Source: an uncultured Spirochaetales bacterium (lineage in GTDB: Bacteria > Spirochaetota > Spirochaetia > Sphaerochaetales > Sphaerochaetaceae). From it: a stretch of DNA of 64,000 bases. Every line of letters begins with the position of its first letter. Position 1 is the stretch's first letter. The notes under the pieces were generated by a model. It did not search any database. It saw only the letters and a program-made list of their open reading frames with translations, and was not told where the DNA came from. Where the stretch lies: assembly GCA_944388965.1 (NCBI GenBank), contig CALXKL010000001.1, positions 248,001-312,000 on the forward strand. The letters are read 5' to 3'. A program made the position numbers and the translations under genes. This document shows, one piece after another, positions 48,218 through 64,000 of the stretch.

Positions 48218-48781
48218 ATGGACAGATCCAGAATCATGAGAACGGTCGTCACCGCGCTCTTCACGGCGCTTGTGGCCGCGGGCGCCTTCATCAGGATACC
48301 GATGGTGCCGGTTCCGATGACGCTCCAGACCTTCTTCGCACTGGTCGCCGCAGCCTGTCTGCCGCCTATGATGGCCACAGTGAGCATGCTCGTCTATCTC
48401 TTTCTCGGTACCGTCGGTCTGCCGATATTCACGTCTGGAGGAGGGCTTGCAGCCCTGCTAGGTCCTACCGGAGGCTACCTGATCGGCCTCGTACCGGCCG
48501 TCCTTGCCGGTTCGCTCGTCATGAAGACGTCGTCGTTGATCGGGACCAGAGGTGCGGCGATTCTGTCCGTCGTCGTCACGAACGTGCTTGTATATCTGGT
48601 CGGGCTGCCATGGCTTTCGGCAAGTCTTGGTCTGTCGTTCACCGCGACCATTGCGGCAGGACTGCTGCCGTATATCGCAGGGGATGTCGTCAAGTCTGTC
48701 GTGACCGTCACTGTCGCCCCGTCCGTGAGGGCCCGTGTGGTGGATCTTGTCTCGAGGGATGATGAGCGGGAGACCTGTTGA
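48218..48781 (+). CDS. bioY: Biotin transporter substrate-binding protein BioY
   Basis: A 187-residue S-component with six hydrophobic helices. Family features include IRIPMVPVPMTLQTFF near the N-terminus, GTVGLPIFTSGGGLAALLGPTGGYLIG in the middle and LPYIAGDVVKSVV near the C-terminus. It binds biotin with high affinity and works with BioMN. Being placed after bioMN with its own BirA operator, it can be regulated separately. The pyrG promoter overlaps its stop codon. Confidence 0.96.
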   Translation: MDRSRIMRTVVTALFTALVAAGAFIRIPMVPVPMTLQTFFALVAAACLPPMMATVSMLVYLFLGTVGLPIFTSGGGLAALLGPTGGYLIGLVPAVLAGSLVMKTSSLIGTRGAAILSVVVTNVLVYLVGLPWLSASLGLSFTATIAAGLLPYIAGDVVKSVVTVTVAPSVRARVVDLVSRDDERETC

Positions 48782-48806
48782 GAAATACGGGCGGAAACGA
48801 TAGAAT
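48778..48806 (+). promoter_or_regulatory. pyrG promoter overlapping the bioY stop
   Basis: TTGAGA (48778-48783), exactly 17 nt, TAGAAT (48801-48806). The predicted start (about 48813) is only about 7 nt before a terminator hairpin, so pyrG must be reached by antitermination or readthrough. Confidence 0.7.
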
Positions 48807-48819
48807 GCCGGCAGATCGG

Positions 48820-48866
48820 ACAAGGACGTCCTTCCCATTGCGGGATGGACGTCCTTGTCTTTTTTC
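48820..48866 (+). terminator. Intrinsic terminator/attenuator in the pyrG leader
   Basis: ACAAGGACGTCC (48820-48831) pairs perfectly with GGACGTCCTTGT (48847-48858); an inner TCCC/GGGA helix closes an ATTGC loop. CTTTTTT follows at once. Only 12 nt separate the T tract from the pyrG ATG and contain its SD. It also terminates bioY transcription, but the promoter lying before it makes attenuation of pyrG likely. Confidence 0.85.
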
Positions 48867-48878
48867 CGGGAGGAGAGC

Positions 48879-50477
48879 ATGGAAAGAAAGTACGTATTCG
48901 TCACAGGCGGTGTCGTGTCGGGACTGGGCAAGGGCGTGTGCGCCGCAAGTCTGGGCCTTCTGCTGAAGCAGAGGGGGCTCAAGGTCGCGGCGCAGAAGCT
49001 CGACCCATATCTCAATGTGGACCCGGGGACCATGAGTCCCTACCAGCATGGCGAGGTGTTCGTGACGGAGGACGGTGCCGAGACGGATCTGGACCTGGGG
49101 CATTACGAGAGGTTCATCGACGAGAATCTGAACAGGAAGTCGAACCTTACAAGCGGCAAGGTGTTCTGGAACATCCTCAACCGCGAGCGCAGCGGCGGCT
49201 ACCTGGGGCGGACCGTTCAGATCATCCCTCATGTGACGGACGAGGTCAGGGATGCGGTGGTCTCGCTCGGCGAGATGACAGGTGCAGACGTGGTCATCAC
49301 CGAGATCGGCGGCACTATCGGTGACATCGAAAGCCAGCCGTTCCTCGAGGCCGCAAGACAGCTGCGCTGCCAGGTCGGCTTCCAGAACACCATGTTCATC
49401 CATGTCGTGCTCGTTCCGTATCTCGCCTGCAGCGGAGAGTACAAGACCAAGCCCAGCCAGCACTCGGTGCATGAGCTGCAGGGCATGGGGATAATGCCGG
49501 ACTGCATAATCGCGCGTTCGGACAGCCCTCTGGACGAGGAGATCCTTGCCAAGATGGCAATGTTCTGCAATGTCGACAGACGTGCCGTGATCGGCAACGA
49601 GAACATCAGCCCGATCTATGCCATACCTCTGCTTCTGCATGAGAGGGGATTCGACGATCTTGTCGTATCGCGACTTTCGCTGGAGTGCGGAGATTGCGAT
49701 CTGGAGGCATGGCGGACCGCCGTGGGCCGCATGACGGGGAGCAAGAGCCGCAAGGTCCGCATCGCGCTGTGCGGGAAGTATGTGAAGCTGCATGATGCCT
49801 ACCTCTCGATAAACGAGGCCCTTCTGCATGCCGCCTGCTGGAACGATGCCGATCTGGAGCTTCTTTACGTCGATGCCCAGGAGGTCGAGAAGTACGGTCC
49901 GGAGAAGCTGCTGGAGGATGTCGATGGCATACTCGTGCCCGGAGGCTTCGGCTCCAGGGGGATCGAGGGGATGGTCCAGTGCGCCCGCTTCGCCCGTCAG
50001 AACGACATACCATACCTCGGAATCTGCCTCGGGATGCAGGTGGCCGTGATCGAGGCCGCACGCTCTCTTGCCCATCTTGAGGCTGCCAACTCACGCGAGT
50101 TCGACCCGGATGGAGACGAATGCGTCATCGATCTGATGGACGAACAGCGTAATGTCGTGTCGAAGGGTGGAACGATGCGTCTTGGCGCATACGAGTGCAG
50201 AATACTGCCGGGCAGTCTTCTGCATGAGTTGTATGCGGCCGATCTGGTGCAGGAGAGGCACAGGCATCGCTACGAGGTGTCCCCGGTCTTCAGGGACAGG
50301 ATTGAGGACAGCGGAATCGTCTTCAGCGGCACCAGTGTGGACGGCAGGCTCGTCGAGGCCATGGAGAACCCATCATGCCGCTTCTTCGTCGCCGTCCAGT
50401 TCCATCCCGAATTCAAGAGCCGCCCGAACAGGGTCCATCCTCTGTTCGACGGCTTCGTGCGAGCTGCCTTGGCTTGA
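48879..50477 (+). CDS. pyrG: CTP synthase (glutamine-hydrolysing)
   Basis: Makes CTP from UTP using ATP and glutamine. The 532-residue protein has the amidoligase start KYVFVTGGVVSGLGKG, metal/substrate region LDPYLNVDPGTMSPYQHGEVFV, and a C-terminal class I glutamine amidotransferase domain. That domain has Cys nucleophile motif LGICLGMQ and the late His-Glu pair in VQFHPEFKSRP. GGGAGGAGAG precedes ATG 48879. An upstream terminator suggests control by attenuation. It ends convergent to asnB. Confidence 0.97.
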   Translation: MERKYVFVTGGVVSGLGKGVCAASLGLLLKQRGLKVAAQKLDPYLNVDPGTMSPYQHGEVFVTEDGAETDLDLGHYERFIDENLNRKSNLTSGKVFWNILNRERSGGYLGRTVQIIPHVTDEVRDAVVSLGEMTGADVVITEIGGTIGDIESQPFLEAARQLRCQVGFQNTMFIHVVLVPYLACSGEYKTKPSQHSVHELQGMGIMPDCIIARSDSPLDEEILAKMAMFCNVDRRAVIGNENISPIYAIPLLLHERGFDDLVVSRLSLECGDCDLEAWRTAVGRMTGSKSRKVRIALCGKYVKLHDAYLSINEALLHAACWNDADLELLYVDAQEVEKYGPEKLLEDVDGILVPGGFGSRGIEGMVQCARFARQNDIPYLGICLGMQVAVIEAARSLAHLEAANSREFDPDGDECVIDLMDEQRNVVSKGGTMRLGAYECRILPGSLLHELYAADLVQERHRHRYEVSPVFRDRIEDSGIVFSGTSVDGRLVEAMENPSCRFFVAVQFHPEFKSRPNRVHPLFDGFVRAALA

Positions 50478-50530: not shown

Positions 50531-52117
50531 TCACTGCCCGCTCCTGTCGTAGTTCGAAAGCACCCTGGCCGAAGGATCGTCGACATCGCATCCCGGCCAG
50601 GCAGGGTTCGGCATCCAGAAGCCGGGTATCATCCGGTACTGTCCGGGATAGAAGCTCTCGAAGATCTCCCTGTACAGGAGGGACTCTGGTGTGAACGGGC
50701 GTCCCTTTTCCGGGTAGCGTGCGTATTCCTTCTCGAGGTCACGCCCTTCAAGACACCGCTGTGCATATGCCTTGAGGTCGTCGACCATGCTGTGGCCCAC
50801 CGCGTCGCTGAAGGCCGCCTTCTGTCTCCAGAGGATGTCGTCGGGAAGCCATTCTCCATCCTCGAAGGCCTTGCGCAGAAGATATTTTCCATGGCCAGAG
50901 CGGTTCATCTTCATCTCAGGGTCGATCGACAGCACGTACGAGGCGAAGTCGAGGTCTCCGAATGGCACTCTCGCCTCGAGACTGTTGTCGGCGATGCAGC
51001 GGTCCGCCCTCAGGACGTCGTATGCGTACAGCTCCCTTACACGCTTGATGCTCTCCTGCTGGAACGCCTCCGCATCCGGGGCATAGTCCGTGTACTTGTA
51101 GCCGAAAAGCTCGTCGGACACCTCGCCGGTAAGCAGCACCCTGACATCCGTGTGCTCATGGATGTATCTGCACAGCAGGAACATCCCGATGCTTGCCCTT
51201 ATGGTGGTGATGTCGTAGGTGGCAAGGCTCTTCACCACTTCGGGCAGGACGTCAATGACGTCCTGCTCCGTCATCGTCACATTCGTGTGCTTCGCACCGA
51301 GGAATGCCGCTGTACGCTCGGCGTATCTGCTGTCGATGGGGTCCTTGTCCATGCCGATCGAGAACGTGCGTATCGGACGGCCGAGGATTCTGGTTGCGAT
51401 CGAGCACACGAGCGAGCTGTCCAGACCGCCGGAGAGGAGGAACGCCACCGGAGTATCGCTGTCAAGCCGCTTCTCGACGGCCCTGACGAGCTTCTTTCTT
51501 ATGTTTCCGGTCACCTCGTCGAGGCTTGCATATGAATACCTGCCGACCGCCGTGATGTCCCGGTAGCAGATGAACTCTCCACCCTTGTAGTAATGTCCTG
51601 GCGGGAAGGGGTGCACCTGTCTGCATAGACCGGTCAGGAGACAGGCCTCGCTTGCGAATGCGATCATCCCGTCATCGTCGTAGCCGTAGAAGAGCGGACG
51701 GATCCCGATGGGGTCGCGGGCTGCGATGAACCCGTTCTCTCCGTCATGGATCACGGTCGCATACTCCGCGTCCAGCATTGCGAACATGTCCACACCATGC
51801 TTTTCGTACAGGTGGAGCACCAGCTCGCAGTCGGACTCGGAACGGAACACATGCCCTTCCGCCTCCAGCCGCCTGCGCATGTCCCTGAAACCGTAGATCT
51901 CGCCGTTCGTAACGCTGTACATGCCCTTGTATTCGAAAGGCTGCATGCCTCTTTCGTCGACGCCCATGATGGACAGTCTCTGGAAGGCAAGTACCAGGCC
52001 CGGTTCCGGAGTAAGGATGCGTTCGCAGTCCGGACCTCTCCTACGTGTCCTTTCCAGGACGCCTCTGATTCCGTCGGGTCCGATTGAACCACCCCTGTAG
52101 GCAAGCACTGTACACAT
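50531..52117 (-). CDS. asnB: Asparagine synthase (glutamine-hydrolysing)
   Basis: A 528-residue enzyme converting aspartate to asparagine with ATP and glutamine. The start MCTVLAYRG places the amidotransferase nucleophile at Cys2 after Met removal. The class II Ntn domain continues to about 200, and the synthetase PP-loop is FLLSGGLDSSLV. The C-terminal part (GEVSDELFGYKYTDYAPD) is conserved. ATG 52117 is used, with GAGGTG 5 nt upstream; the frame to 52129 would add four residues before the required N-terminal Cys. It is the last gene of the glutamate-synthase operon. Confidence 0.94.
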   Translation of the reverse strand: MCTVLAYRGGSIGPDGIRGVLERTRRRGPDCERILTPEPGLVLAFQRLSIMGVDERGMQPFEYKGMYSVTNGEIYGFRDMRRRLEAEGHVFRSESDCELVLHLYEKHGVDMFAMLDAEYATVIHDGENGFIAARDPIGIRPLFYGYDDDGMIAFASEACLLTGLCRQVHPFPPGHYYKGGEFICYRDITAVGRYSYASLDEVTGNIRKKLVRAVEKRLDSDTPVAFLLSGGLDSSLVCSIATRILGRPIRTFSIGMDKDPIDSRYAERTAAFLGAKHTNVTMTEQDVIDVLPEVVKSLATYDITTIRASIGMFLLCRYIHEHTDVRVLLTGEVSDELFGYKYTDYAPDAEAFQQESIKRVRELYAYDVLRADRCIADNSLEARVPFGDLDFASYVLSIDPEMKMNRSGHGKYLLRKAFEDGEWLPDDILWRQKAAFSDAVGHSMVDDLKAYAQRCLEGRDLEKEYARYPEKGRPFTPESLLYREIFESFYPGQYRMIPGFWMPNPAWPGCDVDDPSARVLSNYDRSGQ

Positions 52118-52125
52118 TTCACACC

Positions 52126-52842
52126 TCACACTGCAGCATAGAGCTGGCTGTACGATTTCGATTCATCCGCCTCTATGGCGATGAAACCTCCTTCAAGACA
52201 TCTGTCGACTGGAATGGAGAAGACCGAGGCGAAGTCCTCGACCACAGGCCGGACGACCTGGTCCAGCTCCGATGCCGGCACACTGCGCATGACGAGCTTG
52301 TCGGACAGATTCCTCACAGTCCTCACCGTCCTGAGATAGATCGTTCCCGCGTACATGCCGCTTCCGCAGAAATGGCCTGTGATGTCCTCTCCCTCATGAC
52401 CCAGCCCCAGGACGATGATGATGCCTCCTGCAAGATACTCGCCGAGGAACGATCCGGTCCTTCCACCGACCACGAGGACGCCTCTGTGCTCCCCGTATGC
52501 CTTCATGTGGACTCCAGCCCTGTATCCGACGTCGCCCAAGACATAGACCCGCCCACCACGCATGCCATAGGCAAGCGCATCTCCGGCCGATCCCCTTACG
52601 GCGAGCAGACCGGCGTTCATCGTGTCCGCCGCTGCATCCTGCACATTGCCATCGACATATATGCTGCCTCCGTCCAGGTAGGCGGCGATGGCGTTTCCCG
52701 GCGTGCCCTCCACATGGAGGATGCCATCCTTCATCGCGCATCCTATATGACGCTGTCCCAGACAGCCTGTCAGTGCAATCTCCTCTCCTGCATACCCCGA
52801 TATCCCACCAGGGGTGCACTTGGCCATGTCCAATCTCCTCAT
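52126..52842 (-). CDS. Glutamate synthase GXGXG-domain subunit
   Basis: A 238-residue stand-alone version of the C-terminal beta-helix (GXGXG) domain of glutamate synthase large subunit. Repeating G-x-x-G-x-x-x-G turns are visible (IYVDGNVQDAAADTMNAG, LLAVRGSAGDALAYGMRGG, VLVVGGRTGSFLGEYLAGG). In split archaeal-type glutamate synthases this piece associates with the FMN core. ATG 52842 lies just after the upstream stop, with AGGAGA as SD; 52857 and 52827 are alternatives. Confidence 0.9.
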   Translation of the reverse strand: MRRLDMAKCTPGGISGYAGEEIALTGCLGQRHIGCAMKDGILHVEGTPGNAIAAYLDGGSIYVDGNVQDAAADTMNAGLLAVRGSAGDALAYGMRGGRVYVLGDVGYRAGVHMKAYGEHRGVLVVGGRTGSFLGEYLAGGIIIVLGLGHEGEDITGHFCGSGMYAGTIYLRTVRTVRNLSDKLVMRSVPASELDQVVRPVVEDFASVFSIPVDRCLEGGFIAIEADESKSYSQLYAAV

Positions 52843-52843
52843 C

Positions 52844-54328
52844 TCATTCTCCTGCATGCCCGATTCCCAGTATCTCGAGCTCCTTCGTGTTCAGTCCGAC
52901 TCCTCTGAGCGCCAGCCGGTTGCCCCTCAGGGCCTCTATGCTGTCGATTCCCATTCCTCCCATGAACTCCCTGATCTCGCGTGTCCATGCATTGACCAGG
53001 TTCACAAGGCGCTGCGCCCCTTTTTCCGGATCCAGTCTTCCTGCGAGCTCCGCATCCTGTGTCGCAAGTCCCCATGCGCATCTTCCCGTATGGCATGAGG
53101 CGCAGATGTGGCAGCCGAGAGCGCACAGCGCCGCCGTGCCGATCGATACCGCATCCGCTCCCAGCGCAATCGCCTTGACGACGTCCGAGGAGTTCCTGAT
53201 ACCGCCTGATGCGATGACGGAGACCCGGTCCCTGATCCTCTCCTCCCTGAGTCTCTGGTCGACGACGGCGATGGCCAGCTCGATGGGGATGCCCACATTG
53301 TCCCGGATGCGTCTGGGAGCCGCCCCCGTTCCGCCACGGTAGCCGTCGATCGAGATGATGTCTGCACCGCTTCTGGCGATGCCGGAGGCGATCGGGGCTA
53401 TGTTGTGCACGGCCGCGACCTTCACGATCACCGGTTTCGCATGGTGTGTCGCCTCCTTTATCGACATCACCAGCTGGGCGAGGTCCTCTATCGAGTAGAT
53501 GTCATGGTGCGGGGCCGAGCTTATGGCATCCAGCCCTGGCGGCACCATGCGCGTCTTGGAGACGTCGCCGACGATCTTCCTGCCGGTCAGATGTCCTCCG
53601 ATTCCCGGCTTCGCGCCCTGGCCGATCTTTATCTCGATGGCGGCGGCCGTTTCCAGATAGGTCGCGTGGACGCCGAATCTGCCGGAGGCGACCTGGACTA
53701 TGGTGTTCCTCCTGTAAGGATAGAGGCCTTCATGCAGGCCTCCCTCTCCTGTGTTCCAGCAGGTGCCGAGACTCTCGGCCGCTTTGGCAAGCGCCTTGTG
53801 GACGTTCAGACTCATCGCACCATAGCTCATCGCGGAGAACATGATCGGCACATCCAGCTCGAGATGAGGAGGCAGGTTGTCGACGATGTCTCCATCAGCG
53901 TCCCTCCGTATGCCTTCCGGCCTTCGACCGAGGTAGACGGCGGTCTCCATCGGTTCCCTCAGCGGATCGATCGACGGGTTCGTGACCTGGCTTGCATTCA
54001 GAAGCATTCTGTCGAAGTAGATCGGTACCCGGCTTCCCGGAGCACCCATCGAGGACAGGAGGACACCGCCGGTATCTGCCTGCAGGATGATCTCCCGTAT
54101 GTCGTCCTCGCCGAAGAGGCCGTTGTGCCGGAACCTGTTCGCATCCTCTGTTATGTAGACGGTTCCTGTCGGACAGAAGGAGACGCAGCGTTGGCAGTCC
54201 GTGCACCTGTCATGGTGGAACGAGAGCTTTCTGTCCTTGTCTACCGTTATCGCCCCGAAGGAGCATTCCCTCGCGCATCTTAGACATGAGATGCATCCTT
54301 CGTACATTCCTATCCTGTAGCGTCTCAT
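52844..54328 (-). CDS. Glutamate synthase core subunit with two 4Fe-4S clusters (archaeal type)
   Basis: A 494-residue FMN protein. The N-terminus has a ferredoxin domain with CISCLRCARECS and CTDCQRCVSFCP. The (beta/alpha)8 FMN-binding glutamate synthase domain follows, with FSAMSYGAMSLNVHKALA, IKIGQGAKPGIGGHL, SIDGYRGGTGAAPRR and the Cys cluster CALGCHICASCHTGRCAWG. It transfers ammonia from the amidotransferase to 2-oxoglutarate. The usual NAD(P)H-oxidising small subunit is not in the window, so electrons may come from ferredoxin or a remote subunit. Confidence 0.94.
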   Translation of the reverse strand: MRRYRIGMYEGCISCLRCARECSFGAITVDKDRKLSFHHDRCTDCQRCVSFCPTGTVYITEDANRFRHNGLFGEDDIREIILQADTGGVLLSSMGAPGSRVPIYFDRMLLNASQVTNPSIDPLREPMETAVYLGRRPEGIRRDADGDIVDNLPPHLELDVPIMFSAMSYGAMSLNVHKALAKAAESLGTCWNTGEGGLHEGLYPYRRNTIVQVASGRFGVHATYLETAAAIEIKIGQGAKPGIGGHLTGRKIVGDVSKTRMVPPGLDAISSAPHHDIYSIEDLAQLVMSIKEATHHAKPVIVKVAAVHNIAPIASGIARSGADIISIDGYRGGTGAAPRRIRDNVGIPIELAIAVVDQRLREERIRDRVSVIASGGIRNSSDVVKAIALGADAVSIGTAALCALGCHICASCHTGRCAWGLATQDAELAGRLDPEKGAQRLVNLVNAWTREIREFMGGMGIDSIEALRGNRLALRGVGLNTKELEILGIGHAGE

Positions 54329-55422
54329 GCTCCAGCCTCCTCGTTGAGGCGGACGATCACCGCCTGACCACCCTGTGGTGCCCAGATCCTGTCCGGATCC
54401 TTCTCCACGACTCTTATCGCGGCCTCCTCGGAGCTGAAGTAGAACGTGTCACCTTTCTGTGCGGCGACGAGACCTCTCAGCTTGAGCCTGTCGTTGAGGG
54501 CCATCATCCCTCCGCGGAAGCCGACGAGTATCGAGAATGGACCGGTTATGAGAAAGGACGAGAACATCCTTCTCAGATACGATAGCCTCCTGCGTTCCTG
54601 CTCATCCTCCATGGCGGCGATCGTCGTCCAGAACGGAGATGCGACCACTTCGGCACATTCGGCGAGCGAAAGGCCCTGTCTTCTCGTCAGGTAGTCCAGC
54701 ATGTACGTGATCACCTCGGTGTCCGTCAGAAGACTGCACGTGTAGCCGTACATCTCGACTGTCCTGCGGTTGGCATCGTATGAGGATATCTCGCCGTTGT
54801 GCACGACCGACAGGTCCAGGAGCGAGAACGGATGGGCGCCGGCCCACCATCCGGGCGTGTTCGTAGGATAGCGGCCATGAGCCGTCCACGAATAGCCTTC
54901 GTATTCCTCGATGCGATAGAAGTCGGCGACGTCCTCCGGATAGCCGACCGCCTTGAAGACCCCCATGTCCTTGCCGCAGGAGACGACATACGCTCCGTCT
55001 ATCGAACCGTTTATGCCGATCATCGCTCTGGACGTGTATTCCTTCTCGTCCAGCTGGCTGTCCTGCAGCATGTGTGGAAGCGGGGTTATGAAGTAACGCC
55101 ATATGAGGGGTGCGTCCGTGATGGCCGCCGTACGTCTGACCGGAATCTTCGACAGGTTGATTATGTCGAAACGGCACTCCAGGAACCTCTCGGTCTCCTC
55201 CCTTGCGCTCTGCGAGTCGTAGAATATGTGCAGGGCGAAATGGTCCTTGTACTGAGGATATATCCCATAGGCCGCGAATCCGCCGCCCAGGCCGTTGGAC
55301 CTGTCGTGCATCACGGCTATGCTCCTTCTTATCGCCTCTCCGCTGATGCGCTTCCCGTCACGGCGGAATATCCCGCTGATCGCACAGCCGGAACTGATTC
55401 TGACCTCTCCTTCCTTTTTCAT
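54325..55422 (-). CDS. Class II glutamine amidotransferase subunit of glutamate synthase
   Basis: A 365-residue Ntn-type glutaminase that supplies ammonia to the split glutamate synthase. The Ntn region SSGCAISGIFRRDG puts the probable nucleophile at Cys13 rather than position 2, so a 12-residue propeptide would have to be removed. Conserved WTAHGRYPTNTPGWWAGAHPF and VVHNGEISSYDANRRTVE are typical of the glutamate synthase family. ATG 55422 follows a GGGGGTG sequence. It is the first gene of the four-gene operon and has a leader terminator. It overlaps the next gene by 4 nt. Confidence 0.92.
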   Translation of the reverse strand: MKKEGEVRISSGCAISGIFRRDGKRISGEAIRRSIAVMHDRSNGLGGGFAAYGIYPQYKDHFALHIFYDSQSAREETERFLECRFDIINLSKIPVRRTAAITDAPLIWRYFITPLPHMLQDSQLDEKEYTSRAMIGINGSIDGAYVVSCGKDMGVFKAVGYPEDVADFYRIEEYEGYSWTAHGRYPTNTPGWWAGAHPFSLLDLSVVHNGEISSYDANRRTVEMYGYTCSLLTDTEVITYMLDYLTRRQGLSLAECAEVVASPFWTTIAAMEDEQERRRLSYLRRMFSSFLITGPFSILVGFRGGMMALNDRLKLRGLVAAQKGDTFYFSSEEAAIRVVEKDPDRIWAPQGGQAVIVRLNEEAGA

Positions 55423-55445
55423 TCCGCACCCCCGGAAAATGAGAA

Positions 55446-55479
55446 AAGGACGCTCTGAGACCACTCTCAAAACGTCCTT
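55446..55479 (-). terminator. Intrinsic terminator/attenuator in the glutamate-synthase operon leader
   Basis: Minus-strand AAGGACG (55479-55473) pairs with CGTCCTT (55452-55446), enclosing an inner TGAGA/TCTCA helix with apical GTGG (or UGAG/CUCA with hexaloop AGUGGU). TTCTCATTTT follows. It lies between the promoter (-10 at 55498-55493) and ATG 55422, so transcription must read through it. Confidence 0.8.
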
Positions 55480-55492
55480 GTTTCTGTCGCCA

Positions 55493-55522
55493 TTTCTACG
55501 TCATAACGCTCATCCTTGTCAA
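55493..55522 (-). promoter_or_regulatory. Promoter of the glutamate-synthase operon
   Basis: On the minus strand TTGACA (55522-55517), 18 nt, TAGAAA (55498-55493). The expected start near 55486 is about 7 nt before the terminator hairpin. Confidence 0.6.
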
Positions 55523-55571
55523 TCGGATGCATACTGCGTGAATGAAAATCCATACGGATGCATGAAACCTC

Positions 55572-55601
55572 TTGACTATTCCGCCGTGGTTTCCCTAATA
55601 T
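55572..55601 (+). promoter_or_regulatory. glnA promoter
   Basis: TTGACT (55572-55577), 18 nt, TAATAT (55596-55601). The predicted start near 55608 precedes a terminator hairpin by about 9 nt. Confidence 0.65.
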
Positions 55602-55616
55602 TCGGCCAGAAACGGC

Positions 55617-55652
55617 AAAGGCGCTGCAGAGAGTGTATCTGTGGCGCTTTTT
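55617..55652 (+). terminator. Intrinsic terminator/attenuator in the glnA leader
   Basis: AAAGGCGC (55617-55624) pairs with GCGCTTTT (one G-U pair), and an inner TGCAGA/TCTGTG helix closes a GAGTGTA loop. The T run extends to 55652, 20 nt before ATG 55672. The apical sequence GAGAGTG is identical to that in the glutamate-synthase leader. Confidence 0.75.
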
Positions 55653-55671
55653 CCGTAGATGGAGGATTGAA

Positions 55672-56958
55672 ATGGACTTGAATGACATCAGACAGCTGCT
55701 GGCGGAGTATGAGATCAAGTTCATCCGTCTGGCCTTCTGCGACATATTCGGCAGACAGAAGAACATCGCCATCATGGCCGACGAGTTCGAGCATGCACTG
55801 ACGCGCGGGGTGTCGTTCGATGCCTCCGCGATAAGCGGCTTTCTCAATGTGGACGAGTCCGATCTGCTGCTCTTTCCCGATCTGGATACGTTCTCGGTTC
55901 TTCCGTGGAGACCTTCGGACAGGGCCGTGGCCAGATTCTACTGCTATATCAAGTATCCGGACGGAAGACCGTTCGAAGGTGATGGAAGGTATCTGCTTTC
56001 CCGGATCGAGAAACGCAGTGCCGATAGTGGATATTCGTTCCTCGTCGGACCGGAATGCGAGTTCTACCTGTTCCAGAGCGACGAGAACGGGCATCCGACT
56101 CGTCTGCCACTCGACGAGGCGGGCTATTTCGACATGGCTCCGCTCGACAGGGGGGAGAACATCAGACGCGAGATAAGCTTCGCCCTGGAGGACATGGGGC
56201 TCAAGCCGGAGCGTAGTCATCATGAGCATGGTCCCGGCCAGAACGAGATCGACTTCCGCTGTTCATCCCCGCTCAAGGCGGCCGACGACCTGATGACGTT
56301 CAAGACCGCCGTCAAGGCGATTGCGCAGCAGCATGGTCTGTTCGCATCCTTCCTGCCAAAGCCTCTGGAGAATGAGAGCGGCAGCGGACTGCACATCAAT
56401 CTCTCCCTCTACGAAGATGGCGTCAACCTCTTCGAGAGCGCCGATGGGAAGGCGATGTCGTTCATGGGCGGGATACTCAGAAGGATAGGCGAGATCACGG
56501 CGTTCGCGAATCCATTGGCATCATCATACGAGCGTCTTGGCTGCTTCGAGGCTCCTTCGACGGTCTCCTGGAGTCATCACAACAGGTCGACGCTCGTCAG
56601 GATCCCCTATGCCCAGGGACATGACTGCCGCATGGAGGTCAGAAGCCCGGATCCGGCGGCAAATCCCTATCTGCTGATATCCCTCCTGCTCTCGGCGGGC
56701 TTCGAGGGCATCGGGGATGGTCTGGAGGTCCAGCCGGAGTCGAGTGGGGACATGTTCGCATGCGCCTCATCTCGGAATCTTCCTTCAAGCCTGCGGGAGG
56801 CGGTGGAGAAGGCAAAGGCAAGCCTGTTCGTCCATCAGGTGGTCCCGCAGAGGATTCTGGACGAATATCTTGCCGACAGGTCGGCAGAGGCCGACGTATA
56901 CGAAATGGATGCAAGCGGACGTGAGCGCCTGCTCTCGCGCTGCTTCGAACTGGTCTAG
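55672..56958 (+). CDS. glnA: Glutamine synthetase type I
   Basis: Makes glutamine from glutamate, ammonia and ATP. The 428-residue protein begins MDLNDIRQLLAEYEIKFIRLAFCDIFG, as in short GSI-alpha forms. Catalytic motifs are VGPECEFYLF, HHEHGPGQNEIDF, GSGLHINLSLY and the late RMEVRSPDPAANPYL. The adenylylation loop of GSI-beta is not apparent. GGAGGATTGA precedes ATG 55672. An ANTAR regulator gene follows 9 nt later and the leader has a terminator, so control by transcriptional antitermination is likely. Confidence 0.95.
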   Translation: MDLNDIRQLLAEYEIKFIRLAFCDIFGRQKNIAIMADEFEHALTRGVSFDASAISGFLNVDESDLLLFPDLDTFSVLPWRPSDRAVARFYCYIKYPDGRPFEGDGRYLLSRIEKRSADSGYSFLVGPECEFYLFQSDENGHPTRLPLDEAGYFDMAPLDRGENIRREISFALEDMGLKPERSHHEHGPGQNEIDFRCSSPLKAADDLMTFKTAVKAIAQQHGLFASFLPKPLENESGSGLHINLSLYEDGVNLFESADGKAMSFMGGILRRIGEITAFANPLASSYERLGCFEAPSTVSWSHHNRSTLVRIPYAQGHDCRMEVRSPDPAANPYLLISLLLSAGFEGIGDGLEVQPESSGDMFACASSRNLPSSLREAVEKAKASLFVHQVVPQRILDEYLADRSAEADVYEMDASGRERLLSRCFELV

Positions 56959-56967
56959 GGTGGTGTG

Positions 56968-57519
56968 ATGGAAACCGTGCTCCTGGTTGCCGAGCGTACG
57001 AAATGCGATGAGCTGGAGAGGCTGATCGGTCCTTCGGGCCATGCCTTCATCCGTGCACAGAGCGCACGCGATGCGAGGATGAGGATCCTCGATCTGCAGC
57101 TGTCGCTTGTCGTCGTCGACGCACTGTTCGCCGGCTCTGCGGCCAAGGATACGGCCATCTTCGCCGCCGAGCAGGGCATAGACACGCTCGTGGTCGCGCC
57201 TGAGAGCATTCTGGGTCATGTAGCCGACATCATGCGTAGGCATGGCGTACATGTCGCATGTGCGGACAGGTCATGCATCTATGCCGTGCTCAACTCGATA
57301 GAGGTCGCAAGGGGGAATGTCTCGAGGCTTGAGGAGAAGAACAGGAAGCTTCTTTCCAGGCTGGGTAACGAAAAACTGCTGTGCGAGGCCAAATGTTTTC
57401 TGGCAGCCAGAAGAGGGATGAGCGAGGCGCAGGCCCATGAGTATATCGAGAAGCGGGCCATGGATCGTCGAATAGGCCTGACGGATGCCGCAAGGGGCGT
57501 CGTCAGAGAACTTTCATAA
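56968..57519 (+). CDS. ANTAR-domain RNA-binding antiterminator (NitR-like)
   Basis: A 183-residue protein. The N-terminal half folds like a response-regulator receiver, but the acidic pair is absent (VLLVAERTKCDELE); an Asp is present in LVVVDALF. A coiled segment (NVSRLEEKNRKLL) leads to a C-terminal ANTAR domain, LLCEAKCFLAARRGMSEAQAHEYIEKRAM. ANTAR proteins bind small RNA hairpins and prevent termination. Similar glnA-linked ANTAR genes (nitR) occur in clostridia. It probably acts on the glnA and glutamate-synthase leaders described here. The start is ATG 56968 (GTG 56965 possible) after AGGGTGG. Confidence 0.9.
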   Translation: METVLLVAERTKCDELERLIGPSGHAFIRAQSARDARMRILDLQLSLVVVDALFAGSAAKDTAIFAAEQGIDTLVVAPESILGHVADIMRRHGVHVACADRSCIYAVLNSIEVARGNVSRLEEKNRKLLSRLGNEKLLCEAKCFLAARRGMSEAQAHEYIEKRAMDRRIGLTDAARGVVRELS

Positions 57520-57530
57520 GGGGGAGTGTC

Positions 57531-59606
57531 ATGAACGTACCTGAAATGTTCGGTTCAATGGTTTTCAATGACAATGTAATGAGAGAAATGCTACCGAAAA
57601 AGGTATATCAATCATTACAGGAGACCATGGTTGAGGGAAAGGCCCTGGATGCCGATGTCGCGGATATCGTGGCCTCGGCGATGAAGGAATGGGCGGTAGG
57701 CAAGGGGGCGACCCATTTCACGCACTGGTTCCAGCCGATGACCGGGATTACGGCGGAGAAGCATGACAGCTTCCTGACAGTCGACAAGAACGGATGCGTC
57801 ATAATGGACTTCTCCGGAAAGGAGCTCATCAAAGGTGAGCCGGATGCCTCGAGCTTCCCTTCAGGGGGACTGAGGGCGACGTTCGAGGCCAGGGGATACA
57901 CGGCCTGGGATCCGACCAGCTACGCCTTCATCAAGGACGACACGCTGTGCATCCCGACGGCCTTCTGCTCGTATACGGGGCAGATTCTGGACAAGAAGAC
58001 GCCTTTGCTCAGAAGCATGGATGCGATAAGCGTGCAGGCCGTGAGGGCGCTTGCCCTCTTCGGACGGAGCGCCAGGCGGGTCATTGCGACGATCGGTTCC
58101 GAGCAGGAATACTTCCTCATAGACAGGAAGGACTATGCACAGAGGCTGGATCTCAGATTGACAGGCCGCACTCTTCTTGGTGCTCCCGCCGCCAAGGGGC
58201 AGGAGATGGAGGATCATTACTTCGGCTCGATAAGGCCGAGGGTGAAGGCCTTCATGGCGGATCTTGACGAGGAGCTGTGGAAGCTCGGCATAACCGCCAA
58301 GACCGAGCACAACGAGGTCGCGCCATGTCAGCATGAGATGGCACCCATCTACGACAATGCCAACCGTGCCACCGATGCCAACCAGCTCACGATGGAGGTG
58401 ATGAGGAAGGTTGCAGAACGTCACGGTTTCGCCTGCCTGCTGCACGAAAAGCCGTTCGAGGGCATAAACGGCTCAGGCAAGCACAACAACTGGGCGCTCA
58501 GCACCGATGACGGCGAGAACCTCCTCGACCCGGGGCGCACGCCTGAGGCGAATGCGCAGTTCCTGCTGTTCCTCACAGCAGTGATCAAAGCTGTGGACGA
58601 GTACCAGGACCTGCTTAGGATAAGCGTCGCAAGTGCAGGCAACGACCATAGACTTGGTGCGAACGAAGCTCCTCCAGCCATCGTGTCCATCTTCGTCGGA
58701 GACGAGCTGGAGTCGGTGATCGACTCGATCGTCGAAGGCAGGCCGGCCGCTGGAGGACGTTCGTCGAACCATCTGGATATCGGCACGGGCGTCCTTCCGA
58801 AGCTCGCGCGTGACAACTCGGACAGGAACAGGACGAGTCCATTCGCGTTCACCGGAAACAAATTCGAGTTCCGCATGCCTGGCTCGTCCTTCAACATAGC
58901 ATGCACGAACGTGATGCTGAACACGGCGGTGGCCGACGCCCTGAAGTCCTTCTGCGACGAGCTCGAGAGCGCACACGACTTCACCGCATGTCTTAACGCC
59001 CTGGTGAGAAGGGAGCTTTCAAGGCACAGGAGGATCATCTTCAACGGAAACGGATACAGCCATGACTGGGAGGTCGAAGCAGAGAGGAGAGGGCTGTCCA
59101 ACTACAGGAGGACGCCGGAGGCGCTTGTCCATTACTGCGATTCGAAGAACGTCGAGCTCTTCGCAAGGCATGGGGTATACACGAGGCAGGAGATGGAGTC
59201 CCGGCTCGAGATATCCCTCGACGAGTACCGCAAGGCCATCCATATAGAGGCGATGACGATGATCGAGATGATCCGTCGGCAGATTCTTCCTGCATCCCTC
59301 CGCTTCTCCTCATCACTCGCATCATCCGTGCAGCTGAAGGATGGAATCGGGGTCGCTGCAAATGCGGACAAGGCTCTGTGCGCAAAGGCGAGCGCCCTGT
59401 GCGATGAGCTTCTGCTCAAGACCGATGAACTTGAGGAATGCATCGCTGGAGAGCCTCAGGATGCACAGGAGGCCGCATTCTACGCCGCAGACCGGGTCAT
59501 ACCCGCTATGGAGGCCGCCAGAGCGGCATCCGACAGGCTCGAGGCGATTGTGGACAGGTCATTCTGGCCGATCCCGACGTATTCCGAAATCCTCTTCTAT
59601 TCCTGA
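57531..59606 (+). CDS. glnN: Glutamine synthetase type III
   Basis: A 691-residue GSIII, the large form found in Bacteroides, cyanobacteria, spirochaetes and clostridia. The family start VPEMFGSMVFND is intact. Catalytic blocks include IGSEQEYFLID, KTEHNEVAPCQHEMAPIYDNAN, GINGSGKHNNWALST and NDHRLGANEAPPAI. It begins 11 nt after the ANTAR gene, with AAGGGGGAG as SD. The first 20 codons are noticeably AT-richer than the rest. Two GS types beside each other, with one regulator between, suggest shared nitrogen control. Confidence 0.96.
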   Translation: MNVPEMFGSMVFNDNVMREMLPKKVYQSLQETMVEGKALDADVADIVASAMKEWAVGKGATHFTHWFQPMTGITAEKHDSFLTVDKNGCVIMDFSGKELIKGEPDASSFPSGGLRATFEARGYTAWDPTSYAFIKDDTLCIPTAFCSYTGQILDKKTPLLRSMDAISVQAVRALALFGRSARRVIATIGSEQEYFLIDRKDYAQRLDLRLTGRTLLGAPAAKGQEMEDHYFGSIRPRVKAFMADLDEELWKLGITAKTEHNEVAPCQHEMAPIYDNANRATDANQLTMEVMRKVAERHGFACLLHEKPFEGINGSGKHNNWALSTDDGENLLDPGRTPEANAQFLLFLTAVIKAVDEYQDLLRISVASAGNDHRLGANEAPPAIVSIFVGDELESVIDSIVEGRPAAGGRSSNHLDIGTGVLPKLARDNSDRNRTSPFAFTGNKFEFRMPGSSFNIACTNVMLNTAVADALKSFCDELESAHDFTACLNALVRRELSRHRRIIFNGNGYSHDWEVEAERRGLSNYRRTPEALVHYCDSKNVELFARHGVYTRQEMESRLEISLDEYRKAIHIEAMTMIEMIRRQILPASLRFSSSLASSVQLKDGIGVAANADKALCAKASALCDELLLKTDELEECIAGEPQDAQEAAFYAADRVIPAMEAARAASDRLEAIVDRSFWPIPTYSEILFYS

Positions 59607-61337: not shown

Positions 61338-61872
61338 TCACAGCTCGTCGAGATGGACCTTGAAGGAGATGGTACGTGCCGTTGGCATGGAGTCGAACAG
61401 TATGACATGGGCACAGAGCTCCTCGTCGACCTCAATGACAGTACCAGGGCCGAAGACCGGGTGCCGGACTCTCTGTCCTGGCATGTAGATGCCGCTTCGA
61501 AGCCTTGCGACCATCTTTCCGTTCTCGCTCTCGATATGCCTTTCGGCCCGGCGTATGAGTCCTTCATCCGGCTCATGTGTGAACTGGAGAAGCGATCTGT
61601 CTATCTCGAGAAGGAAGCGGGAAGGGTAGCGGATCGAGCCGTCGAAGCCGAAGCCGTCAGCCTCGCTGAGGTGAAGCGTCTTCTGTGCCCGGGTGATGGC
61701 CACGAAGGCAAGCCTGCGCTCCTCCTCCATCCCCTCCGGGGTGCGTACCTTTCGTGAGGGGAAGACGCCTTCGTTCATCGCGCACAGGAAGACATGCGGG
61801 AACTCGAGCCCCTTGGCCGCATGGACCGTCATGAGACGCACCTTGTCGCCTCTGTCCTCGGCATCCGCATTG
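61338..61872 (-). pseudogene. 3' part of a UvrD/PcrA-type helicase gene, separated by a TnpB element
   Basis: The last 178 codons of a superfamily 1 DNA helicase. It resumes at NADAEDRGDK and includes motif V VRLMTVHAAKGLEFPHVFLCA and motif VI ERRLAFVAITRAQKTLHLS. It ends with the UvrD C-terminal Tudor-like module (PGQRVRHPVFGPGTVIEVDE). Joined to the fragment at 63291 it continues the reading frame exactly (HVALFT then NADAEDRG). Without the first part there is no ATPase domain, so this fragment alone cannot be a helicase. Confidence 0.9.
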
Positions 61873-62035
61873 GTCAACTACCGCTGCCCTGAAGGGCACC
61901 AGCTTGTAACTGCCCGGCAGTACTGACGGCATCAGGCCTCCTGCCTTTGATTCCTGCAGTTTCCTCATCAGACTTGCAGGTGGCGTTACATCGCGGGGTG
62001 GTTGACTGCACCCCATGACTGACAGAATATATCCA
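61873..62035 (-). ncRNA. Predicted TnpB guide RNA (reRNA/omega RNA) scaffold at the right end
   Basis: The 163 nt between the tnpB stop and the element boundary hold several stems, including TGCCC-TTCA-GGGCA close to the end. In IS605 elements the right end and tnpB 3' region are transcribed into the guide RNA, with the guide being the flanking DNA. The guide here would start at 61872 (CAATGCGGATGCC...), which is helicase coding sequence. The RNA 5' end is not predictable from sequence. Confidence 0.6.
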
Positions 62036-63142
62036 TCAGCCAGTCTGTCTTATCCTTTCAAGTCCTCTCCTATAGATATTCATCGCCGCTATCCGGTCAT
62101 CATTTCCCTTATAGCCGCACACAGGACAGGAATAAAGCCTCTCCCTTCTGTCTCTTGCCTTCTTATCCACATTCAGACAATGGGGACAGGTCTGTGATGT
62201 ATGCCTCGCATCTACATATATCACCCTGCATCCAGCAAGAGAGGCTTTGTATTCCAGTTTCTGCTGCAAGTCATAATAAGGCCATGACACACTGACATAG
62301 CGGTCTTCCCTTTTTACCCTGCAGGTCGCATTCCTCACACCGGAGAGGTCTTCCAGTACAAAGACTGTCCCTCTTTCATTTTCGGCGACGAGTGTCTTTG
62401 CCAGCTTATGATTGACATCACTGACGTAGCGGTTCTCTCTTTTCCCGATTGCCTTGAGTCTTCTTCTGGATGATGGTGTGTTACGTTTCTGCAGAGATTG
62501 TCGCACTGCCTTGAACTTCGCTCTCTTCTGTTTTACTTCTGTTCCCTTATAGAACCTTGTCTTCTTTCCGTCATATGTAACTGCTATGTTGATTATCCCC
62601 CTATCAATTCCGACGACCTTTGTCTCATCCACAATGAAATCAGGACTGCCGAGTGTGACGGAAACATGGAAAAAGGCTTTGCCTTTCCTAAGGACAAGCT
62701 TTGCTCCCCCATACACTGCATCCTTATTGATATACTTCTCAAAACCCTTTGAAGAAAAAGGGACCCTTATTCGCTTTTCCAGTGTATTGAGAGAGACAAT
62801 TCCTTTTTCAATATCAATCGACCAGTCTCTTCCTCTTACCTGATCACACTGCGGCAAAGAGAAGAAGACAGGCTTATCAAGCCTTATACGGGTTTCCTTT
62901 GTATATCTTGCCGCGACTGTCCTTGTCACAGAGATTGCCATCTGGGCTTTAAGAGCGAACCTGTCTCTTAAAACCGCATAGCTCTTTTTCTGAAGATTGA
63001 CGGCATTGTACTCTTTTTCATAGAAAGCAATGGAGGAGACATGATTACAGGCATCCCTGTAAGCACAAGAGACAGCTTCAAGGAGTTTCAACTCCTCTGC
63101 ACTCACGTTTAAAGAAAGCTTTGCCGTAATCACTGTTTCCAT
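62036..63142 (-). CDS. tnpB: TnpB RNA-guided endonuclease
   Basis: A 368-residue TnpB with an apparently intact active site. RuvC motif I is VVGIDRGIINIAV, motif II VFVLEDLSGVR, and motif III is in GNDDRIAAMNIYRRG. The zinc ribbon is CPHCLNVDKKARDRRERLYSCPVCG. The N-terminal helical/WED part begins METVITAKLSLNVSAEELKLLEAV. A consensus TATAAT lies 7 nt before ATG 63142 with no SD, as in several host genes. TnpB cuts DNA next to its TAM under guide-RNA direction and promotes retention of the element. Confidence 0.95.
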   Translation of the reverse strand: METVITAKLSLNVSAEELKLLEAVSCAYRDACNHVSSIAFYEKEYNAVNLQKKSYAVLRDRFALKAQMAISVTRTVAARYTKETRIRLDKPVFFSLPQCDQVRGRDWSIDIEKGIVSLNTLEKRIRVPFSSKGFEKYINKDAVYGGAKLVLRKGKAFFHVSVTLGSPDFIVDETKVVGIDRGIINIAVTYDGKKTRFYKGTEVKQKRAKFKAVRQSLQKRNTPSSRRRLKAIGKRENRYVSDVNHKLAKTLVAENERGTVFVLEDLSGVRNATCRVKREDRYVSVSWPYYDLQQKLEYKASLAGCRVIYVDARHTSQTCPHCLNVDKKARDRRERLYSCPVCGYKGNDDRIAAMNIYRRGLERIRQTG

Positions 63143-63290
63143 ACTTAAGATTATATTATATAATGACTTATTTTACCAAAAAAACGAAAGAAAACTAAAA
63201 GATTCTTCTCTTTTCTTTCTTCTTCAGACATTGTTGAACCGCAATTCCTCTGCAGCCTTGGAAGACGGCAGCTTCCTTGCTTGTTTAATT

Positions 63291-64000
63291 GTGAAGAGGG
63301 CCACATGGGACAGGTAGTCCATCAAGGTCGTCTCCTCGCCGCAGGTGGTCTCGTAATCATGTACCGACTGCCTGAGCTCGGCCAGGTTGTCCAGCCTGTC
63401 CTGCGCTCCTTCCGTCCTGAGCATGCGCTCGTAGCCGCTTCGCTCCAGCACTTCGCCCAGCAGTTCGGAGACCTGACGGCCATCGTTTCGGTCGAAGGAA
63501 TGCACGAGGTCGACGAATCCGGCTGCACCGGTACCCTTGAAGAGAGACTGTCCTAGATTCGCCTCAAGGGCCTCGAAGAGAGAGCATGAATGCGCTATGG
63601 CATACTCCTCCAGAGCCTCCATTCTACGCCGTCCGATGTTTCGCCGTGGCGTGTTGACGACGCGCCGGAAGGACATGTCGTCCCGGTATGCGACCATTCT
63701 CAGGTAGCATAGCGCATCCTTGACCTCCCTGCGGCTGAAGAAACGTATTCCGCTGTAGACCGCATATGGGATCTTCGCCTGGATCAGTACCATCTCGAGA
63801 GAGCGGGTGACATAATGTGCCCGATAGAGGACCGTGATGTCCCTGAGCGCGCACCCCTTCATGTGCATGTCCTTGATGCAGCCGCATATCCAGGCGGCCT
63901 CGTCCTCCTGGCTTGCCGCATAGTGGCAGACCACGGGTGCTCCGCTCGACAGTGTGGGGATGATGTCCTTCGCGATTCTGTCGACGTTGTGGGAGATGAG
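63291..64000 (-). pseudogene. 5' part of a UvrD/PcrA-type helicase gene (partial, runs off the window)
   Basis: An open minus-strand frame from the right edge encodes the 2A/2B-domain part of a UvrD-family helicase (ITVLYRAHYVTRSLEMVLIQ, YAVYSGIRFFSRREVKDALCYLR, RVVNTPRRNIG). It reaches HVALFT at 63291 and then runs into the element, adding about 22 foreign residues before a stop at 63224-63226. The truncated product lacks motifs V and VI. The true start and Walker A lie beyond the window. Confidence 0.9.

Follow-up and report, generated by a model that had tools for sequence, protein, structure and literature searches.

Three leaders in a 64,000-nucleotide stretch of DNA from an uncultured spirochaete, which is part of the 2.1 Mb genome bin G000 and is called the window here, are very probably single-hexaloop ANTAR antitermination attenuators. 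Termination would be their default state, and a pseudo-receiver ANTAR protein, whose gene lies between glnA and glnN, would open them. They lie upstream of glnA, the glutamate-synthase operon and pyrG (Table 1). What is conserved in each of them is a small hairpin, with an AANGRC hexaloop closed by a C-G pair, at the base of the terminator on its 5' side.

The leaders in the window and their conserved hairpin

An earlier note on this DNA had described the divergent regions upstream of glnA and glutamate synthase as leaders with promoter, attenuator and SD, and as far as can be read from the sequence these units are real. The promoter-like sequence places the predicted glnA transcription start at about 55608 on the plus strand, and TTGAC is invariant or nearly so among 38 aligned leaders. 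Sites that combine an AANGRC hexaloop and a 4-bp stem with an overlapping terminator, counted without promoter information, number three in the window and zero in 100 dinucleotide shuffles. A search of Rfam gave no family at gathering score, the matches being at chance level only (E up to 5). The glnA product scores 370 bits against a curated GlnA cut-off of 429, and could therefore be a diverged glutamine synthetase or one with a partly regulatory role.

Table 1. Coordinates of the features, in the window unless another genome is named
Feature	Position	Strand	Description
pyrG promoter	48778..48806	+	TTGAGA 48778-48783; TAGAAT 48801-48806
pyrG ANTAR hairpin	48818..48831	+	GGAC[AAGGAC]GUCC; third copy in the window
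pyrG intrinsic terminator	48818..48866	+	
pyrG	48879..50477	+	Glutamine-hydrolysing CTP synthase; NCBIfam TIGR00337 above cut-off; Pfam
Glutamate-synthase operon	50531..55425	-	Separate subunits, last gene asnB; domain/family matches
asnB	50531-52129	-	End of the glutamate-synthase operon
Glutamate synthase, GXGXG subunit	52126-52857	-	
Glutamate synthase, synthase subunit	52844-54328	-	
Glutamate synthase, GATase subunit	54325-55425	-	First gene, start 55425
Glutamate-synthase intrinsic terminator	55446..55479	-	10 nt common to hairpin
Glutamate-synthase ANTAR hairpin	55470..55483	-	P2 type, AAAC[AAGGAC]GUUU; hexaloop 55479-55474
Glutamate-synthase promoter	55493..55522	-	TTGACA 55522-55517; ~18 nt; TAGAAA 55498-55493
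glnA promoter	55572..55601	+	TTGACT 55572-55577; 18 nt; TAATAT 55596-55601
glnA ANTAR hairpin	55613..55626	+	P2 type, CGGC[AAAGGC]GCUG; hexaloop 55617-55622
glnA intrinsic terminator	55617..55654	+	Stem-loop 55617-55651, then T-run; 10 nt common to ANTAR hairpin
glnA SD	55661-55665	+	GGAGG
glnA	55672..56958	+	Type I glutamine synthetase, ATG 55672; below TIGR00653 cut-off
ANTAR protein gene	56968..57519	+	Between glnA and glnN; PF03861
glnN	57531..59606	+	Type III glutamine synthetase, same operon as glnA and ANTAR gene; PF12437
UvrD-helicase fragment	61338-61877	-	
TnpB-like gene	62036-63142	-	OrfB_IS605; Cas12f1-like TNB domain
UvrD-helicase fragment	63224-64000	-	
P1-P2 pair of G081			UCCCGUAC[AAAGCU]GUACGGGA-U-GGC[AAUGAA]GCC; before terminator, upstream of gene read as eutA

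The note had seen one ANTAR-type hairpin in each leader and had suspected a reduced recognition element. The count is correct, and a single recognition hairpin per leader, not two, is indeed the best reading; the hairpin itself, however, is a different one from that drawn in the note, being the one at the 5' terminator base. Its hexaloop has A1 and G4 on a stem of at least 3 bp, as in dual-hexaloop ANTAR RNAs, and like the P2 hairpin of such RNAs it overlaps and excludes an intrinsic terminator. Because the 5' arm of the terminator is made up of the hairpin loop together with the 3' strand of its stem, hairpin and terminator are mutually exclusive. The 5' strand of the stem lies mostly outside the terminator, so that only the hairpin accounts for its complementarity.

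Among relatives the stem is found as CAGC/GCUG, GAAC/GUUC, GGAC/GUCC, UAAC/GUUA, AGAC/GUCU, CAUC/GAUG, AAGC/GCUU and others. In 38 aligned leaders 99.3% of the stem cells are paired (74.8% after shuffling), the covariation score is 0.791 (0.269 after shuffling, and matched in 0 of 500 shuffles), and pairing falls to 50% or less once the stem partner is slid. Most of the 38 were gathered with a model that favours pairing, and percentages are somewhat inflated in the later leader sets, picked by such a model or motif, whereas the relatives' glnA and glt leaders chosen by position are free of this, and all of them have the hairpin. Minimum-energy folding gave the terminator in all 85 full leaders analysed and the hairpin in 79 partial transcripts of these, before the 3' arm is made. 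In the three window leaders the switch from hairpin to terminator was followed step by step in the folds. Since the terminator dominates the fold of the full leader, termination is the predicted default.

One hexaloop close to the promoter

EutV-mediated antitermination depends in vivo on the presence of both hairpins (PMC3369931, PMC8934654), and one hairpin might thus not suffice here. The first of the two, P1, takes up by definition 12 nt or more, to which a 2-25 nt linker is added (PMC8164766). Walshe et al. (PMC8934654) observed that the ANTAR dimer touches a single hexaloop at any one time, and posed the question why two are needed; in their revised definition one hexaloop is the minimal binding motif, and they predicted single sites for cases in which transcription imposes no time limit. 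Two published searches for ANTAR RNAs demanded two hairpins (PMC3369931, PMC8164766), and therefore a single-hairpin class would have been missed by them. Spirochaetes are absent from the main text of PMC3369931, and in the literature we found no report of ANTAR regulation in spirochaetes.

A total of 101 hairpin-terminator sites were collected without promoter information. In 85 of them TTGACA (at least five of six positions) is present 39-48 nt upstream of the hexaloop, compared with 8 and 16 in control windows. The promoters are of the sigma70 type, and the gap between the end of the -10 box and the hairpin stem is 6-15 nt (median 10). Given this gap, transcription is predicted from the promoter sequence to start within a few nt of the stem, leaving no room in the transcript for a 12-nt P1 and its linker; with starts placed in this way, the transcripts contain no P1 at the 2-25 nt distance upstream of the hairpin.

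It is unlikely that the leaders are normal dual-hexaloop ANTAR RNAs, with a P1 that a more distant upstream promoter would bring into the transcript. Although a P1-like hairpin is found upstream of 10 of the 101 sites, and seven leaders have a second hairpin-terminator module in series, such hairpins show no excess over shuffled upstream DNA (mean 6.6, range 1-15), and a conserved promoter at a fixed distance fills the space that P1 would need. Furthermore, the same kind of scan detects P1 and P2 in an EutV-like spirochaete system, that of G081, which belongs to the same class and another family and served as positive control. The ANTAR gene of G081 is of the EutV type, with a true receiver, and is accompanied by a sensor-kinase gene; the locus (L157; 2660-2800 and 2811-4776, both on the minus strand) has a canonical EutVW-like pair, a dual-hexaloop leader and a eutA-like gene. 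In the leaders described here, a single hexaloop at the 5' end is probably enough for ANTAR antitermination in vivo, P1 being dispensable, and it is on such switches that the glutamine regulon across spirochaete families (GS, GOGAT, AmtB, CTP synthase, asparagine synthase, CarA) probably runs.

Compared with known systems, the leader mechanism is most likely like EutV/AmiR antitermination but outside the dual-hairpin definition of ANTAR RNAs. As in the eut system of Enterococcus faecalis (PMC3369931, PMC8934654), an A1/G4 hexaloop hairpin overlaps the 5' arm of the terminator; in contrast to EutV targets, there is one such hairpin instead of P1 and P2, and it lies a few nt from the predicted start. 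In the predicted ANTAR nitrogen regulons of Desulfotomaculum, ANTAR RNAs likewise precede glutamate synthase and other nitrogen genes, but these regulons were found by demanding the dual hairpin (PMC3369931).

Co-occurrence with the ANTAR gene and the downstream genes

The ANTAR gene that the note had recognized beside the leaders matches PF03861 with 46 bits (curated cut-off 27.3; E 4.5e-12). The note had also called for a covariance-model search from related leaders, and the leader matches in this search track ANTAR-positive genomes. The first model, made from 14 leaders and extending from the -35 box to the hairpin, detected the three window sites in G000, with no further match above noise. 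Applied to 61 relatives, it matched all 20 ANTAR-positive genomes (E up to 0.014), 11 of which gave no training sequence, and two of the 41 others, weakly. With the second model (38 sequences), run on 395 genomes of the class, leaders were found in 75 of 104 ANTAR-positive genomes versus 2 of 291 ANTAR-negative ones (Fisher p ~1e-53, in which independence is overstated, the genomes being related). At the sequence level, the note's view of both divergent leaders as attenuators linked to the ANTAR gene is supported. Good leaders are present in G362 (L163) and G391 (L164), where no ANTAR gene was found, perhaps because of gaps in the assembly or because the regulator has diverged.

Ninety-six of the 101 distinct leaders precede one of seven nitrogen/glutamine genes. 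The genes downstream of the 101 sites are glutamate synthase (27), glnN (22), glnA (16), amtB (13), pyrG (11), asnB (6), an ATP-grasp protein (1) and five others, which include carA (Pfam CPSase_sm_chain) as well as gltD-like and purA-like genes, these two kinds judged from reading the sequence alone. Twenty leader pairs are divergent, mostly glutamate synthase versus a glutamine synthetase. Judged from these sequences, the leaders upstream of glnA, glnN, glutamate synthase, amtB, pyrG, asnB and carA most likely constitute one glutamine regulon. The seven tandem leaders (L062, L084, L094, L139, L145, L151 and L155) have their two modules 52-177 nt apart, upstream of amtB or glnN, and apparently contain two decision points in series. 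One leader, L096 (G003:C15:7111-7172), precedes the gene for a protein whose sequence resembles a circularly permuted ATP-grasp enzyme, a possible new nitrogen gene.

Nucleotide-sensing pyrG leaders are known elsewhere, for example in Bacillus, and pyrG is among the leader-bearing genes of the spirochaetes. However, we consider it quite improbable that ANTAR is not what the attenuators answer to and that its gene is a bystander, with control exerted for instance by nucleotide-sensing initiation of the Bacillus pyrG kind: the same element precedes glnA, glnN, glt, amtB and asnB, the presence of leaders follows the ANTAR gene across genomes, the hexaloop fits the ANTAR A1/G4 rule, and the predicted starts of the three window leaders have no homopolymer run.

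The ANTAR protein and the proposed switch

The ANTAR protein is composed of a pseudo-receiver, a coiled coil and an ANTAR domain. Its AlphaFold model (mean pLDDT 94.7) shows a receiver-like domain, a 49-residue helix and the short helices of the ANTAR end, and the nearest solved folds are those of Rv1626, RNA-bound EutV (TM 0.69) and AmiR. The fold is the same as that of EutV, and Met172 of EutV corresponds to Met165, which is invariant in 25 of 25 relatives. However, Tyr164 of EutV, which stacks on G4, is replaced by an invariant His157 (25 of 25 proteins), and the usual phosphorylation residues are absent. The receiver acidic pair is lacking in the 25 aligned proteins, and the Asp position is occupied by D, N, E or Q; phosphorylation of the receiver is therefore unlikely, and the protein does not have the acidic pair and phospho-acceptor Asp of phosphorylated REC-ANTAR proteins of the EutV type.

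AmiR of Pseudomonas, on which AmiC acts, is likewise a pseudo-receiver ANTAR protein with His at the Tyr164 position, and is the best single-sequence PDB match of the protein described here. However, its RNA is assigned two hairpins (PMC3369931), and no AmiC-like partner was found in the operon here. From the gene order, our guess is that glutamine synthetase might act on the pseudo-receiver. PII and AmtB were also considered as signal parts and were rejected because a Pfam search found neither gene in this genome.

The note had seen an apical GAGAGTG in both leaders and, in the minus-strand one, had drawn the ANTAR recognition pattern there. The motif is present (55629-55635 on the plus strand, within the glnA terminator, and 55462-55468 on the minus strand), but it is neither enriched nor conserved: the window contains six copies versus 15.6 expected, which is rarer than chance, and only two of 82 non-redundant related leaders contain it. 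When leaders of syntenic relatives were chosen by gene position, the apical parts varied freely and the 5' base of the terminator was kept. The apical GAGAGTG/AGUGGU loop was accordingly rejected as the recognition element, and drops out on the comparison with relatives that the note had proposed; since the conserved, covarying A1/G4 hexaloop is the AANGRC at the terminator base, the ANTAR link survives this loss. That the protein recognizes the loop at the terminator apex, either by itself or as the second of two hexaloops, the basal one being the first, is extremely improbable, for although the glt leader has an apical GAG[AGUGGU]CUC with A1 and G4, and an apical A1/G4 hexaloop can be drawn in 17 of 82 leaders (about 8 expected), A1 can pair with U6 in most of these to give a tetraloop, true apical hexaloops have A1/G4 in 5 of 55 cases without enrichment, and binding there would leave the terminator uncontested.

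In the proposed switch, RNA polymerase would start within a few nt of the small A1/G4-hexaloop hairpin, and this hairpin alone would be overtaken by the far more stable terminator, transcription ending before the SD. The ANTAR protein, when active (presumably as a coiled-coil dimer, and presumably under shortage of glutamine or nitrogen), would bind the single hexaloop, hold the hairpin and block the terminator, so that the polymerase would continue. The same switch would operate before glnA-ANTAR-glnN, glutamate synthase-asnB and pyrG, and in relatives also before amtB, asnB and carA; its position before glnA-ANTAR-glnN would provide autoregulation within one glutamine regulon. The leaders resemble naturally occurring antiterminators with a single hexaloop and a length of about 45 nt, and with them the two-hexaloop question of Walshe et al. 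becomes directly testable; the single sites here apparently serve in cis, the opposing terminator being about 45 nt from the start. The leaders are part of a candidate nitrogen control circuit for spirochaetes, in a genome with no detectable PII gene, and ANTAR control of pyrG and carA would link pyrimidine synthesis to glutamine supply.

Near the right end of the window a TnpB-like gene lies between two UvrD-helicase fragments (Table 1). Thus, a uvrD/pcrA-like gene has apparently been interrupted by an IS605-type element.
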